Below, piece by piece: positions 14,234 through 24,122 of a stretch of DNA of 64,000 nucleotides. A program made the position numbers and the translations under genes. The stretch covers positions 62,001 to 126,000 of the forward strand of contig JAFLCC010000001.1 in the NCBI GenBank assembly GCA_017302835.1. The letters are read 5' to 3'. This DNA is from Deltaproteobacteria bacterium (GTDB taxonomy: Bacteria; Bdellovibrionota; Bdellovibrionia; Bdellovibrionales; Bdellovibrionaceae). The stretch's first letter is position 1, and every line of letters begins with the position of its first letter. The notes under the pieces are model-generated. The model was not told where the DNA came from. It did no database searches and worked only from the letters and a program-made list of their open reading frames with translations.

Positions 14234-15793
14234 ATGAACTCAGTTTTACACAACTATAAAAAATGGCTACTTTATGGTTCCCTACTATCAACACTTGGAT
14301 TTACCATCTCAGGCACCAACCCCAGAACCGAAGGCCAAATTTCCCTCTCCGCAGAGTCTCCACCTGCTGCAGCTGCTGCACCCGATAAGGCACCCGATAA
14401 GGCACCCGATAAGGCACCCGATAAGGCACCTGAAAGAGCAGCGCCAGCCGTAAAAACAATAACCCCACCAACAGCTGCTTCTGCTTCTACTTCACCTTCA
14501 CCTACACCAACGCCAGCAATTGCTCCTCCTTCAACTAATGCAGCCTCAAAAGATCAAAACAAGGAGCAAACGATTAATGCATCAAATGGAAAAAAAGAAA
14601 TACGCTATAAAACTTTACAACGTGATATTTTAAAAAATAGATATGACATTAGAATTTTAGAAGATGAAACTAATGGATCATTTGCAATATATAGACCGGT
14701 AGACACAGAAGGAAAAACTTGTGAGGGTTGTGAGAAAACTTATAGCACTATACCACTTGACTCACAAACTAAAGGCAATATTGATGCTATCGTTAATAGT
14801 ATTGAACAAGATCTAATCACGCGAAAAAAAATTGAATCCACCAAAACAACAACAAATGAAGAACCGCTTAAGAAAAAAGCTGCTGATGGTGCTGACGATG
14901 TTGTTGAAGAAGACACAAGTGCTAGTGATAGACTTTTAGAATCTATTAATACAGCTTGTGATAAAAGCGATAAAGAAGCTGCAAGGCAAATAGAATGTAA
15001 AGTAAACAAGTACATTGCCTTGCTGAATCGACGCTTAGATAAATCCAAGGACAAAAATAAAGTTGTCATTGATGACGATAAGGCCCTCGATTTTTTTAAT
15101 GATAACATCAAAGAAGGGCTAAAGGATATGCTAACTCATAAATTTGTAATGCCCATGGTTTATAACAATGATGTCTATGATAGATATTCTATGAATATGG
15201 AATTTAACGAGGAAAAAGTTGCCGCCAAAAAAGAACAAGAGAAAGCAATCAGCTTGATTAAAAAACTGATGAAGGAATTAGGTTCTAAGTACAAAAATGT
15301 CAGAAAAGAAATTGCGGAGCTACATAAAGATGCAACAAGGGAACAAGCAAAAGACGCTCTGTTAAATTATACACAATTAAAACTTGCTGAAAAAAATAAG
15401 GACAAATTAGGCATAGCTTCAAACTATGGAAGCTTTGCAATGAACGATGAGTTCTTAAGATCCTTAGACCAGAATCTTTTTTCCGATCTAAGTTCGGGAA
15501 TTAATGACTCTCGACGATTGAAATTACTTGATAATGGCTCCTATGACGAGATCATGAGACTATTAAATAATTCTCACTCTGGACTTTGTCTTTCCTACTC
15601 AAGAGCCATTGGACAAAATTCTGATAGTTGCGGATCCCTACAAGGTGCCAGTCTTTCAGATTTTTCAGTATCCGACATCGTTGAGGCTCTTACCAATAGT
15701 AAGAGAAATCAACGCGGCAACGTTAGCGGATCCCCTGCTGCCATACAGTCAGCCCCTGTTAGCAACGGTCGAGGTTCACCCCGAGGTCAGTGA
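14234..15793 (+). CDS. Secreted coiled-coil/low-complexity protein, unknown function
   Basis: A 519-residue protein with an N-terminal hydrophobic segment (WLLYGSLLSTLGFTISG) likely to be a signal peptide. It is followed by an Ala/Pro/Lys-rich linker (about residues 40-115) that includes four PDKA repeats, then a charged, largely helical body with several Cys (TCEGCEKTY, NTACDKSDKEAARQIECK), and a Gly/Ser-rich end. A GGAGG site precedes the ATG. Architecture suggests an extracytoplasmic protein held by a flexible proline-rich linker. No family recognised. Confidence 0.65.
   Translation: MNSVLHNYKKWLLYGSLLSTLGFTISGTNPRTEGQISLSAESPPAAAAAPDKAPDKAPDKAPDKAPERAAPAVKTITPPTAASASTSPSPTPTPAIAPPSTNAASKDQNKEQTINASNGKKEIRYKTLQRDILKNRYDIRILEDETNGSFAIYRPVDTEGKTCEGCEKTYSTIPLDSQTKGNIDAIVNSIEQDLITRKKIESTKTTTNEEPLKKKAADGADDVVEEDTSASDRLLESINTACDKSDKEAARQIECKVNKYIALLNRRLDKSKDKNKVVIDDDKALDFFNDNIKEGLKDMLTHKFVMPMVYNNDVYDRYSMNMEFNEEKVAAKKEQEKAISLIKKLMKELGSKYKNVRKEIAELHKDATREQAKDALLNYTQLKLAEKNKDKLGIASNYGSFAMNDEFLRSLDQNLFSDLSSGINDSRRLKLLDNGSYDEIMRLLNNSHSGLCLSYSRAIGQNSDSCGSLQGASLSDFSVSDIVEALTNSKRNQRGNVSGSPAAIQSAPVSNGRGSPRGQ
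14378..14425 (+). repeat. Four tandem 12-base units encoding PDKA
   Basis: Four exact copies of GCACCCGATAAG in frame within the linker of the 14234 gene, encoding A-P-D-K repeats, followed by a decayed fifth unit (GCACCTGAAAGA). Exact identity of the units suggests recent slippage and possible length variation between strains. Confidence 0.9.
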
Positions 15794-16906: not shown

Positions 16907-18328
16907 TTAGAACTGAATGGCAATCTTTGAAGTTAAACCGTAAGTGAAACTACTATCAGCTCCAGGAATTGAATTTGGTTTAAACGCACTTCCGGGAAAT
17001 AAAAATCCCATCTGATTCACCCACTGGACTTTTTCCCTGGCCTTATAAACAAACTCAAGATCCCACTCAAAACCAAGATCTTTAGAGGCTCCATTATTTG
17101 CTAAAGGACTTGTCACTAATTGGGCCCAAGTAAGGTACTGATTAAAATCAAGTTTTTCATTCCATCGGTATTTCAACACCGGTGACACGTAAAATGCGTT
17201 TGAGATGGCTTCATCATCTAAAGTATTTCCTGCATGAAGTCCGCTAGCAACCGTCACATTTTTATTGGCTCCCGTTCTGAGGACATCATACAAACCCAGA
17301 CGATGATTAAAGAGCAGAAAGGCAACATCATAATTTTTATCAAAGAAAAAGCCTTCGAAATCATTAGTTTCTGGATTATCACCGCTAGCGATACCTGCCT
17401 TTAACAAGTAACTCCAATTTGAACCTGTCTTAAAATTCCACTCCGAAGCAATTCCATAGCCATTCACTTTGACACTTTGGCCACCTTTTAAAGCACCAAT
17501 TTCTCCTGATAAAAATCCTGCTTCTAAGCGAAACCCAAAGGAATCCCAATCTCTTCCTAAAATAAAATTAGTTCTTTGAACATTGAGATCACCACTTCTG
17601 GAATCTCCAACGGCACCTGGATTCACGGACAAGTCTACAGGAACATCATTGGCTGTAACAGACGCTTTTCTTCTTTCTAACATGACACCAATTAAACTTC
17701 CTGAATCCTTATTTTCATATTGAACTAAAAAACCTTCATCTTGGGTCATGCTGCCTTGCTGGTACCCGTCCTCAGAATGACGAGCAAAGAAAGGCATCAG
17801 AGTTAAATTATTTATCAGAAATTTATAGGCAATTTGATCACGATTATTATTCCAATGATCAAACAAGCCATCCCCCAAAGAGTAATTCATTCCAATTCCA
17901 AAATAAAATGGAGCTCTTCCAATAATAAAAGAAGCATTCTCCTGTGAAATGTTTAAATATAATTGACTTACCTTTACTGGCATACTGTCTGCCGAGTGCC
18001 CAAAAGCACTTGACTTTGATGGGCTTGAAGTTTTGTCTTCACTTCTTCCCCATTGCGACCCCAAATAAGAATTATAATTGCTGTCAACATTTGAAAAAAT
18101 TTCGAATCTAGAAACAATTTTAATACCGTCCGAAGCTTCAATTCTTGGTGCCAAATACAGGTAATTTAAACCATATGATTTTTTTAAAGAAGGATTTGTA
18201 AGGCTAGGTTTATCTATTTCAACGAATTCAAATCTATATCCACCCTTCCAATCTAAATTATTGGCAGCACTCAAAATAGAGGTTGTAAGAGTTAATAGAA
18301 AAATAAAAGAATTAAATTTTTTAATCAA
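16907..18328 (-). CDS. Porin-like outer-membrane beta-barrel, alginate-export-like
   Basis: A 473-residue protein with a signal peptide (FIFLLTLTTSILSAANN) and a body of alternating beta-strands ending in Phe (TSKIAIQF). N-terminal WKGGYRFEFVEIDKP and the FIIGRAPFYFGIGMNYSLGDG segment resemble the alginate_exp (AlgE-like) porin group, in which an RQPF/GR motif marks the second strand. It begins 16 bases after the GroES-like gene stop. Substrate unknown; the family name reflects fold similarity only. Confidence 0.7.
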   Translation of the reverse strand: MIKKFNSFIFLLTLTTSILSAANNLDWKGGYRFEFVEIDKPSLTNPSLKKSYGLNYLYLAPRIEASDGIKIVSRFEIFSNVDSNYNSYLGSQWGRSEDKTSSPSKSSAFGHSADSMPVKVSQLYLNISQENASFIIGRAPFYFGIGMNYSLGDGLFDHWNNNRDQIAYKFLINNLTLMPFFARHSEDGYQQGSMTQDEGFLVQYENKDSGSLIGVMLERRKASVTANDVPVDLSVNPGAVGDSRSGDLNVQRTNFILGRDWDSFGFRLEAGFLSGEIGALKGGQSVKVNGYGIASEWNFKTGSNWSYLLKAGIASGDNPETNDFEGFFFDKNYDVAFLLFNHRLGLYDVLRTGANKNVTVASGLHAGNTLDDEAISNAFYVSPVLKYRWNEKLDFNQYLTWAQLVTSPLANNGASKDLGFEWDLEFVYKAREKVQWVNQMGFLFPGSAFKPNSIPGADSSFTYGLTSKIAIQF

Positions 18329-18343
18329 AGGACACCTCTATAT

Positions 18344-18973
18344 TTAATTATTAACAATACCAAGTACATCAGATTCTCTCAAAAAAATGACCGTTTCGCC
18401 TTGATACTCAATCTTGCTTCCAGAAAATTGAGAAAAAATGACTTGATCACCTTTCTTAACATCCAATGGACGGATCTTACCTTTTTTGTCTAAATGACCT
18501 CTGCCAACGGCGGCCACAACACCTTTCATATTTCCAGACACATCTGTTACCGTATCAGGAATATACAAACCACCAGGAGTCATTTTTTCACCTTCAGAAA
18601 TCATTACTAAAAGACGATCGTCCAAAGGTGTTACCCAATTTTGAAAATCAATTTTACTCATAACTTTCTTAGCGGGCATCAAGGAAACTTTGATTTTTGT
18701 TGTAGGCATAGTTTTAGACATAACCTTAGATATAGTTTTGGACATAGCTTTAGGCATTGCCTTTGGAGCCACTTTAACTTTAGTTTTAACCTGAGGCGCC
18801 ACCTTAGATTTACCTTTAATTATAGTCGCCACCTTACCTTTTGCTAATTTACCCTTTGTTAGTACTTTAGGCTTAGCGTTAGACTTTGTCTTAGCTTTAA
18901 GCTTAGGCTTGGATTTTGGTTTGGATTTAGACTTGGATTTAATCATAACTTTAGTTTTATTTTTCTTGGCCAT
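18344..18973 (-). CDS. GroES-domain protein with long lysine-rich N-terminal tail
   Basis: About 209 residues. Residues 1-108 are almost only Lys, Ser, Pro, Ala, Val, Met and Thr in short repeats (KSKSKSKPKSKPKLKAKTK; later PKAMPKAMSKTISKVMSKT), like histone H1/AlgP-type tails. Residues about 110-209 are a full GroES fold: WVTPLDDRLLV, mobile loop TPGGLYIPDT, then GDQVIFSQFSGSKIEYQGE and DVLGIV. It is clearly paralogous to the normal GroES at 23820-24122. The mobile loop keeps GG-L-hydrophobic-I, so GroEL binding is plausible. Start ATG 18973 has GAGGAAAG upstream; an alternative ATG at 18994 adds seven residues. It overlaps the upstream DUF507 gene by 17 bases. Confidence 0.85.
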   Translation of the reverse strand: MAKKNKTKVMIKSKSKSKPKSKPKLKAKTKSNAKPKVLTKGKLAKGKVATIIKGKSKVAPQVKTKVKVAPKAMPKAMSKTISKVMSKTMPTTKIKVSLMPAKKVMSKIDFQNWVTPLDDRLLVMISEGEKMTPGGLYIPDTVTDVSGNMKGVVAAVGRGHLDKKGKIRPLDVKKGDQVIFSQFSGSKIEYQGETVIFLRESDVLGIVNN

Positions 18974-19235
18974 GTTTTCTTCTTTCCTCTTCATAATATT
19001 TTTTAAACATAATTTCCCATTCAGGGGACCCTTCGATAACTCCTCTTTTTAAGGAAGCTACCTTGGCCTTTGCTTTTGTTTCTATTTCTAAATCTTCTTT
19101 TACAAATTCCTGTATTGCTTTTTTAGCCAATCGTAATGCTTGATCTTCATCGGTATAATCAACTAAGTCATCGTTCCAAACTGAATCCGTTAAAAGATGG
19201 GCCCAATGGGATTGCCGCTCTTCTGACAAAATCAT
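18957..19235 (-). CDS. DUF507 family protein (second copy)
   Basis: A 92-residue helical, highly charged protein resembling DUF507 (short proteins of about 90 residues in deltaproteobacteria and Aquificae). The C-terminal half (RGVIEGSPEWEIMFKKYYEEERRK) is typical. It overlaps the preceding DUF507 gene by 4 bases (ATGA 19232-19235) and the tailed GroES gene by 17 bases, so these three are translationally linked. Molecular function is not known for the family. Confidence 0.75.
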   Translation of the reverse strand: MILSEERQSHWAHLLTDSVWNDDLVDYTDEDQALRLAKKAIQEFVKEDLEIETKAKAKVASLKRGVIEGSPEWEIMFKKYYEEERRKHGQEK

Positions 19236-19510
19236 AGAATCACCTTTTTTTCTTTTGCTAATTTTTGTTTTAACATGGGATACATTTTAAATCTTTGAAA
19301 TTGCCCCGAATTACTTCTCTCTAAATCATCTAACATTTTATTCACTTCTTTTTCTAAATCGAGTTCTTTTTGATAATCAGTTCGAAGAGCTTCAACGAGT
19401 CGAGAGTATACTTTTTTTTCATCGACTTTAAATTGAACTATATTCTGATCTTTCCAAGACTTTAGAACCTTATTAACAATGACTTCTAAATGCTGATTTG
19501 ATATTTTCAT
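19232..19510 (-). CDS. DUF507 family protein (first copy)
   Basis: A 92-residue helical protein, same length as and related to the next gene: the two share a long charged helix and a terminal segment (QFQRFKMYPMLKQKLAKEKK versus the copy's EWEIMFKKYYEEERRK). Their tandem, overlapping arrangement suggests a heterodimer. Its ATG ends at 19510, directly abutting the divergent PBP gene starting at 19511, so both promoters must lie inside the opposite coding region or use very short leaders. Confidence 0.75.
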   Translation of the reverse strand: MKISNQHLEVIVNKVLKSWKDQNIVQFKVDEKKVYSRLVEALRTDYQKELDLEKEVNKMLDDLERSNSGQFQRFKMYPMLKQKLAKEKKVIL

Positions 19511-21841
19511 ATGAGCCCTATGTTTAGAAACCGATTAAAGACCATTTTGTTAGCTTTTACAATCACTCTGACGCTGTCAATCATGCTGACAGCTCAGGTT
19601 TTCACACATTATGAATCGGAGCTTGAGAAAAGACTCGAATCCAAAAAGTTTATTCACCCCACAGAATTTTTCGCAGCACCCTTACAATTTAGAGTGGGAA
19701 CCTTTTTAAATTTTCCTCAAACTATTGATAAGTTTACCAAGTTAAATTTTCGCCCTAGATCTTTAGGACAACGCTTGCTTTCAGGAGATTATCTTTACAG
19801 CGAAAAGAAAAATTGCGAGACCCTTTTAGGATCTTCAAACTTAGATTATGCTTACTGTTTCGGTTTTGTAAACAAATCAGTCGCGACAGAAAACTCAGAC
19901 AAAGAAATCAATTGGCTTTTCTTAGATAATTCTTATTTAATCATGAGCATCACCAAGGGCTCTCCACCCATCAACAAAGACTCTATTGAACTAGAGCCCG
20001 AGCTTTTAGCACAATATTTAAACACTGAGCCCATCATGCAAGAAGAATTGTCACTCAACGAGATTCCAACCTACTGCCCAAATGCCATCATGGCCATTGA
20101 AGATGTCCATTTCTTAACTCATACGGGGTTTAGCTTAACTGGAACGCTCCGAGGATTAATCCTTCCGCTGCTCAAGGGCAAAAAACCTCAAGGTGGCAGC
20201 ACGATCACTCAACAATTAGTTAAAAATTATTTTCTTTCCAACGAACGCTCTATCAAAAGAAAAGCCCAAGAACTTGTTCTTTCTGTATTAATTGAAAAAA
20301 AATTTAGCAAGGATCAGATTCTTGAAACCTATATGAATATCATCTACATGGGCCAAAATGGTCCTTTCCAATTGATTGGTCTTGGTGCTGCTAGTAGGTT
20401 TTATTTTCAAAAGAAGTTAAGCGATGCCAACCTTGCTGAGTGTGCCTTGCTTGCGGCTATCCTTAATGGTCCAGGCGTCTACAACCCATTTTCTAAAAGC
20501 GAAAAAGCATTAACAAGAAGAAATCTAGTTTTATCAAAAATGAAAGGGCTAGACCTTATTTCAGAACTGGAATTCGAAGAAGCAAAAAAAATCCCGCTTC
20601 CAAATAAAAAACCAAATCTCGCTTCTGAAACAGCTCCTTACTATATTGATGCTGTACGAAAACAGATGAATGAATTAAATCTCCCCCTTGAGGGCAGCAA
20701 AATTTTTACCGGATTAAATCTGGAGCTTCAACAAGGGGCTCAGGAATCGTTAACAAAACATCTTGAAAAATTAGAAAAAGATAATAAAAAAATTTCAGAT
20801 ATAAAAACCAAAGGAAAATCCTTAGAAGGGGTTGTCTTATCTGCTGATAATTTCGACGGATTAATCTCTGTAGCTGTTGGCGGACGCAACTTTAGAATGA
20901 CTCAATTCAACCGTGCTATAGATAGTCATCGACAAGTTGGTTCTATCTTCAAACCACTGGTATACCTGACTGCGCTCAACAAAAAAAGCCTTACAGGTGA
21001 AAATTATCACTCGCTATCACTTATCTCTGATGAAAAATTTGAGGTTAAGTATGAAAATCAAAAATGGTCGCCAGAGAATTATTCCAAAAACTTTTTTGGA
21101 CCCGTTCCCATTTATTTTGCCTTAAAAAATTCGCTGAATGCGGCCACTGCGAAGTTAGGAATTGAAATTGGTTTATCAGAAGTCATTGAGACAGCAAAAG
21201 CTTTAGGAGCCAAATCAGAACTAAAAAATCTGCCCTCTTTAACCCTTGGGGCTTTTGAAATGTATCCAACTGAAGTTCTACAAATTTATTCAAACATTGC
21301 TAATTTAGGAAATTCACAAAAACTGAGCTTTATTTCTAAAGTTTTAGATTCGCAAAATAAAATACTTTTTGAGCATGCCATTAATCATCAGCAGATTTTT
21401 GACCAAGTGAGCTTATCTGTTTTAGTTAGTATTTTAAAACAAACAACAAGGACTGGTTCTGCAAAACAAATCTCTGCGATGCATTTTGATTATCCTGTTG
21501 CTGGAAAAACAGGGACAACCAGCGACTTTAAAGATGCTTGGTTTGCTGGTTTTACACCCTTCATGACATCGATAGTATGGGTAGGTTATGATCAAAACTT
21601 AGTGTCTGGCTTAACTGGCGCCAGTGGAGCGGTCCCCGTTTGGCTTCAATACATGCAATTGGCATCCAACAAGTTTTCAAAAAATGATTTTTCATTTCCA
21701 ATGGATAAATTACAAAAAGTTATTATCAACTCAGAATTAATTGAAAAAGCCAAAATTAATAAAGATCTCGATCCCTCTATAGAGTCTTTTGAATTACTTT
21801 TCGATAAAAACAAGCTTCCCTCTTTTATAGAAAAACCTTAA
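19511..21841 (+). CDS. Class A penicillin-binding protein (PBP1B-like)
   Basis: A 776-residue bifunctional peptidoglycan synthase. TM anchor at residues 8-28; a UB2H-like region (residues about 55-100, FNFRPRSLGQRLLSGDYLYS pattern as in PBP1B); GT51 glycosyltransferase motifs EDVHFLTHTGFS, QGGSTITQQLVKNYF, KAQELVLSVLIEKKFSK and ETYMNIIYMGQNG; transpeptidase motifs SIFK (catalytic Ser), SLN and KTGTT. The UB2H region suggests an outer-membrane lipoprotein activator of the LpoB kind. No ribosome-binding site is obvious; a second ATG at 19520 is possible. Confidence 0.92.
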   Translation: MSPMFRNRLKTILLAFTITLTLSIMLTAQVFTHYESELEKRLESKKFIHPTEFFAAPLQFRVGTFLNFPQTIDKFTKLNFRPRSLGQRLLSGDYLYSEKKNCETLLGSSNLDYAYCFGFVNKSVATENSDKEINWLFLDNSYLIMSITKGSPPINKDSIELEPELLAQYLNTEPIMQEELSLNEIPTYCPNAIMAIEDVHFLTHTGFSLTGTLRGLILPLLKGKKPQGGSTITQQLVKNYFLSNERSIKRKAQELVLSVLIEKKFSKDQILETYMNIIYMGQNGPFQLIGLGAASRFYFQKKLSDANLAECALLAAILNGPGVYNPFSKSEKALTRRNLVLSKMKGLDLISELEFEEAKKIPLPNKKPNLASETAPYYIDAVRKQMNELNLPLEGSKIFTGLNLELQQGAQESLTKHLEKLEKDNKKISDIKTKGKSLEGVVLSADNFDGLISVAVGGRNFRMTQFNRAIDSHRQVGSIFKPLVYLTALNKKSLTGENYHSLSLISDEKFEVKYENQKWSPENYSKNFFGPVPIYFALKNSLNAATAKLGIEIGLSEVIETAKALGAKSELKNLPSLTLGAFEMYPTEVLQIYSNIANLGNSQKLSFISKVLDSQNKILFEHAINHQQIFDQVSLSVLVSILKQTTRTGSAKQISAMHFDYPVAGKTGTTSDFKDAWFAGFTPFMTSIVWVGYDQNLVSGLTGASGAVPVWLQYMQLASNKFSKNDFSFPMDKLQKVIINSELIEKAKINKDLDPSIESFELLFDKNKLPSFIEKP

Positions 21842-21982: not shown

Positions 21983-23680
<1,698 letters not shown>

Positions 23681-23819: not shown

Positions 23820-24122
23820 TTAGTTAAAAACTCCAAGAACGTCTTCTTCTCTCATCATTAAATATTCATTTCCATCTAGCTTTAACTCTGTTCCAGAATA
23901 TTTACTGAACAAAACCTTATCACCCGTCTTTACTTCAAGTGGTAAAACTTTACCATCTTCAGTAACTCGGCCTTTTCCTGTAGCAATAATTTCACCTTTT
24001 TGTGGTTTTTCTTTTGCTGTGTCAGGGATAAATAACCCACCAGCCGTTTTTTCTTCTTCTGCCATACGACGTACTAAAATTCTGTCGTGCAATGGACGAA
24101 CGCCAATTTCTTGTTTTGCCAT
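23820..24122 (-). CDS. groS: Co-chaperonin GroES
   Basis: A 100-residue GroES of ordinary length: [13 protein letters not shown] at the start, mobile loop [29 protein letters not shown] and terminal DVLGVF. A good ribosome-binding site (AGGAGG) lies upstream. First gene of groES-groEL. No CIRCE inverted repeat is present in the upstream 140 bases, so HrcA control is not supported; a sigma-70-like promoter is visible instead. Confidence 0.97.

Follow-up and report, generated by a model that had tools for sequence, protein, structure and literature searches.

A lysine-rich tail conserved on the second GroES of Bdellovibrionales and its possible role in placing a GroEL lid on the nucleoid

Few bacterial proteins are as conserved as the co-chaperonins, which are regarded as freely diffusing lids. 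Variant lids that modify a GroEL-type cage include chloroplast Cpn20, which consists of tandem GroES domains, and phage T4 gp31, which enlarges the cage; the protein described here would resemble both in this respect, while to our knowledge neither carries a polycationic tail. The closest described protein is GroES2 (Bd3349) of Bdellovibrio bacteriovorus HD100, studied by Lambert et al. in 2012 (PMC3464611), after which a literature search found no further paper on Bd3349. It had been annotated as a protein of 224 aa, and these authors cut it to 117 aa, starting from the Met at bp 322, because they considered the preceding region to be "repetitive sequence" (PMC3464611). The groES2 gene is silent early, and its expression is confined to the septation stage, 2-4 h into predation; it is not heat-induced, and is de-repressed without the sigma factor Bd0743 (PMC3464611). 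Lambert et al. proposed that GroES2 is an alternative GroEL lid providing a modified chamber for late proteins, and left unanswered the question of why two lids should serve one GroEL in Bdellovibrio (PMC3464611). Shortly before septation, Bdellovibrio compacts its chromosomes again (PMC11318664).

Two other groups of proteins are relevant to the tail described below. The C-terminal tails of AlgP, PhaF and histone H1 are likewise disordered and rich in Lys, Ala and Pro; AlgP/PhaF tails of this similar composition bind DNA and position granules, and those of AlgP act on polyphosphate granules (PMC9239181). In GroES2, however, the tail precedes a GroES domain that should assemble into a seven-fold ring, so it lies at the N-terminus; its repeats are less regular, and its DNA binding is putative. 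GroEL1 of M. tuberculosis is, according to the statement that cites Basu 2009 in PMC9966693, a nucleoid-associated protein, and is likewise a chaperonin-family protein tied to the nucleoid; there, going by the same statement, the protein is a paralogue of the barrel, whereas we propose here a lid acting through a lysine tail.

The tailed GroES of the window and its genomic context

The window (the whole stretch of 64,000 nucleotides analysed here) contains a minus-strand ORF at 18344..18994, in which we placed the start of groES2 at the ATG at 18973 (MAKKNKTK...), based on the start kept in relatives. This gives a co-chaperonin of 209 aa (18344..18973, minus strand) with the conserved start M-A-K, preceded by a Shine-Dalgarno sequence GAGGA (18985..18989, minus strand) that occupies the same position in most relatives. 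Residues 1-108 (18650..18973, minus strand) form a lysine-rich, histone-H1-like tail enriched in Lys, Ser, Pro, Ala, Thr and Val, and AlphaFold2 predicted residues 1-100 to be without structure, including secondary structure (pLDDT 50-56). Residues 113-209 (18347..18637, minus strand) form a GroES/Cpn10 domain, since residues 114-207 match Pfam Cpn10 (PF00166) with an E-value of 1.8e-24 and 86 bits against a cutoff of 21.1. AlphaFold2 modelled this C-terminal part as a GroES fold (core pLDDT ~91-93), and the top PDB matches of the model in a Foldseek search were all Cpn10/GroES structures (e.g., 1p3h, 4v4o, 8wuc and 1aon). These results bear out the earlier note, including its coordinates and the length they imply, which had read a Lys-rich extension of about 108 residues in front of a complete GroES. 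The mobile loop EKMTPGGLYIPDTVTDVSGN (residues 129-148; 18530..18589, minus strand) contains GGLYIP, an instance of the GroEL-binding hydrophobic pattern GG-[LI]xx, and the roof hairpin GRGHLDKKGKIRP (residues 157-169; 18467..18505, minus strand) is basic. The protein shares the fold, the mobile loop and the invariant glycines with canonical GroES/Cpn10 (PF00166), but differs from it in its lysine tail of about 108 aa, its basic KKG roof hairpin, its location outside the groEL operon and its membership of a separate clade. It scored below the cutoff of all 15 NCBIfam "co-chaperone GroES" models (equivalog/subfamily) tried, with a best score of 84.8 bits versus a cutoff of 136, which fits a diverged paralogue and not a GroES of the standard kind. 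It is the orthologue of GroES2, the paralogue found in Bdellovibrionales (Bd3349 in B. bacteriovorus HD100), and like Bd3349 it is a second GroES accompanying a single GroEL; the two accounts differ in that the published one removed the tail, whereas we keep it as conserved protein.

The source genome harbors exactly two Cpn10 genes (groES1 and groES2) and one GroEL gene. The canonical groES1 (23820..24122, minus strand) and the sole groEL (21983..23638, minus strand) lie 5 kb from groES2, where the earlier note had already placed a normal pair, and are the only other chaperonin genes. Each of the 19 genomes checked has one GroEL, which is common to both GroES lids. In one 2.1-Mb genome of the same order (G039), listed as 99% complete, neither GroES nor GroEL was found, reflecting either a true loss of the chaperonin or an assembly gap.

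Immediately downstream of groES2 in the window lies a gene for a predicted outer-membrane protein (16907..18328, minus strand), which we call TIGR04551-like only, as its 63.7 bits fall short of the family cutoff of 300. Such a gene follows groES2 on the same strand in 79 of the 80 loci compared, with a median gap of 12 nt, and is thus the constant partner; in the one exceptional locus the contig ends there. On the other side, a divergently oriented PBP gene (19511..21841, plus strand in the window) flanks 76/80 loci; we use it as a locus marker, outside the proposed mechanism. Between groES2 and the PBP gene are two ORFs, at 19232..19510 and 18957..19235 (both minus strand), which overlap each other by 4 nt, the second also overlapping the start of groES2. 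The earlier note had taken them for two DUF507 proteins, but they cover positions 1-93 and 93-181, respectively, of a single 182-position DUF507 model (PF04368), and hence are the N- and C-terminal halves of one DUF507, which is itself an internal duplication (PMC10439177). Both Myxococcota genomes tested encode DUF507 in one ORF, whereas the carriers of this class and one Geobacter MAG encode it in two. The two halves are a variable partner: 52/80 loci have both, and none of the five searched genomes of genus g6 (taken as Bdellovibrio from the match in length, 224 aa, and in Met108) has DUF507, while in one genome (G008) DUF507 remains but GroES2 is gone, the gene being cleanly absent between DUF507 and the TIGR04551-like gene (L085). 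We therefore ruled out DUF507 as an obligate partner of GroES2, and the invariable precedence of the DUF507 genes, which the earlier note had proposed to check, did not hold. Two further features of the region were seen in passing. The divergent starts of the N-terminal DUF507 half and the PBP gene abut at 19510/19511 with zero bases between them, so that either each promoter lies within the gene facing it or the starts have been listed upstream of their true positions. At 14234-15793 of the window, an ORF of 519 aa has a PDKA tandem repeat near its N-terminus, behind a signal-like segment.

Distribution, composition and translation of the tail

The search took in 60 relatives and, from the phylum, 291 genomes. 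Almost every genome of the family to which the window belongs, and a large part of its order, has a second GroES with a long ORF. The resulting set comprises 80 GroES2 loci, of which 79 are intact and one (L072) is cut by a contig end. All 79 intact homologues carry the lysine-rich tail in frame, which answers the search for this architecture across Bdellovibrionota suggested in the earlier note. The 79 tails have a length of 47-214 residues (median 104) and a net charge of +18 to +99 (median +35), and consist of 36% K, 19% A, 8% each of S, V and T, 6% P, 1.1% R and 1.4% D+E. They are thus histone-H1-like in the sense of the AlgP/PhaF type, being disordered, rich in Lys, Ala and Pro, and poor in Arg, Asp and Glu. 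Within the order, the phylum search found no GroES2 in genomes of 2.0 Mb or less, and likewise none in some larger ones. Members of the phylum outside the order that have two GroES showed no extended frames, and K-rich GroES tails were absent from the 20 Myxococcota loci read. Beyond the phylum, the survey covered these Myxococcota loci and a GroES2-profile scan of contigs (a single short peptide pattern); among the matches listed, which were mostly canonical GroES, K-rich tails occurred only in Bdellovibrionota. In the source genome, no other protein with such a tail matched a synthetic query of the PAKKA type, which was of too low complexity to be informative.

As the tail was removed from Bd3349 on account of its repetitive sequence (PMC3464611), the possibility has to be considered that it is not made, translation starting at an internal Met (giving 117 aa in HD100) with the repeats left untranslated. 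Several observations speak against this. In close pairs, dN/dS is 0.06-0.28 for the tail, that is, below 0.3, versus 0.00-0.10 for the GroES domain. In the L006/L007 pair (dN/dS 0.06), third codon positions account for 22 of the 27 differences in the tail, and a 10-residue difference in tail length keeps the frame. The N-terminus is MA[KTSN] in 71/79 homologues (in summary, an M/V-A-K start), and an AGGAG/GAGG-type Shine-Dalgarno sequence precedes the tail's own start in most loci, whereas an internal Met is in the place of the published start in only 3 of the 19 relatives examined. One of the homologues (L040) has 224 aa with a Met at codon 108, that is, bp 322, and so matches the published description of Bd3349. 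Furthermore, the tail is kept in the window's own species and across the whole order. A frame or annotation error, the case in which the earlier note would have given up the fusion, is ruled out by the dN/dS values and the conserved start. A low-G+C artefact is ruled out as well: the tails stay lysine-rich from 32 to 63% G+C, and in the ten loci of highest G+C lysine still makes up 24-37% of the tail, the use of AAG rising with G+C while Arg does not, hence the lysine content is selected as such and is not an effect of base composition. Judged from these comparisons, the tail is a real protein segment under purifying selection, kept across the order, and the comparative data contradict the published shortening of HD100 GroES2 to 117 aa; that the tail is not made is hardly credible.

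Phylogeny, mobile loop and roof hairpin of the GroES domain

In a tree based on 94 alignment columns, GroES2 forms one clade apart from all canonical GroES sampled (support 98/89), and 96% of the bootstrap trees need only a single change for the GroES2 grouping; GroES2 branches are longer than those of GroES1, reflecting faster evolution. As read from these sequences, GroES2 has one ancient origin. The mobile loop, with the pattern T-x-G-G-[LI]-[YIF]-[IL]-P, is nearly invariant among the 79 sequences, and the roof hairpin GRGHxxKKGxxRP has a median charge of +3, versus 0 for the 13-residue counterpart in GroES1. The fusion inferred in the earlier note is therefore real, old and conserved, with its GroEL-binding loop retained; it is the link to DUF507 that is not constant. 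Three members of family f2, namely, L059 (G037), L057 (G045) and L058 (G050), have altered mobile loops, L059 lacking the GG, and may, to judge by their loops, be tailed GroES proteins in which normal binding to GroEL has been lost.

Possible functions of the tailed lid

We consider there to be an even chance that GroES2 is a late-stage alternative lid of GroEL that attaches by its seven polycationic tails to a polyanion, DNA of the nucleoid being the most likely one. Bdellovibrionales would then possess, for their single GroEL, a second lid peculiar to the order. The GroES domain of this lid is expected to form a seven-membered cap that docks on GroEL through the conserved mobile loop, and each cap would display seven disordered H1-like lysine tails with a total charge of about +250 in the typical case (7 x +35). 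Lying outside the cage, the tails would anchor the cap, along with any docked GroEL, to the polyanion, which is probably DNA; the tethering would take place at the late septation stage, the time of groES2 induction and of chromosome re-compaction. Since AlgP/PhaF-like tails bind DNA, and since re-compaction coincides with the induction of groES2, we favor nucleoid DNA as the place of the alternative lid. Against this reading, the main text on the nucleoid proteomics of HD100, which cover the attack phase only, makes no mention of GroES (PMC10627809).

The position of the tails bears on how far this reading can be separated from one in which they point inward, forming together with the roof hairpins a strongly basic chamber for acidic or otherwise unusual late-stage clients, that is, a cage chemistry encoded by the lid. 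Our literature search found nothing usable on which face of the ring the N-terminus of GroES emerges from. The cavity of GroEL-GroES has a volume of about 175,000 cubic angstroms. We estimated that seven tails of 214 aa occupy ~194,000 cubic angstroms, and seven of the median 104 aa ~94,000; the longest tails thus cannot all sit inside a homo-heptameric cage in the species concerned, which argues that the tails are outside, at least in the longest-tailed species. On the other hand, median tails could fit the cavity, which counts against our preferred explanation, although they would use about half of the cage and leave scant space for a client, and a length spread of 47-214 aa is odd for a lining. 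Two points favor inward-pointing tails: the roof hairpin, on the ceiling side of the cage, is basic too (KKG, median +3 versus 0 in GroES1), and a chamber modified for late proteins was what Lambert et al. had in mind (PMC3464611). We regard this arrangement as unlikely rather than negligible.

Alternatively, the ligand of the tails may be a polyanion other than DNA: RNA or ribosomes (placing folding beside translation), granules of polyphosphate, or the envelope, whose inner face is anionic. Lysine tails discriminate weakly between polyanions, AlgP tails act on polyphosphate granules (PMC9239181), and the constant operon partner, a predicted outer-membrane protein, is envelope-related. However, the 79 tails do not have the poly-acidic, Ser/Lys-rich make-up of the PASK motifs subject to lysine polyphosphorylation (D+E 1.4%), and no signal peptide is apparent on GroES2; in our judgement this alternative is unlikely. 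It is also conceivable that GroES2 has left the chaperonin cycle, its ring serving merely as a scaffold for seven tails that condense the nucleoid without GroEL. The gene does not adjoin groEL, the protein evolves faster than GroES1, and a few members such as L059 have a degenerate mobile loop, a point that also weighs against the alternative-lid reading; but a near-invariant mobile loop in 79 sequences would be unexplained without GroEL binding, and we consider such a scaffold very unlikely.

Taking the alternative lid on nucleoid DNA one step further, we tentatively suggest, as less likely than not, that this GroES with seven H1-like DNA-binding arms is an order-wide nucleoid protein, which either brings GroEL to the chromosome or condenses the chromosome at septation in the prey. 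In any case, the conservation of the tail corrects the published annotation in the model predator (Bd3349 in HD100), and an order-wide lid with an H1-like tail suggests that GroEL folding may be targetable to a site in the cell, or that a part of the chaperonin may have turned into a chromosome protein.
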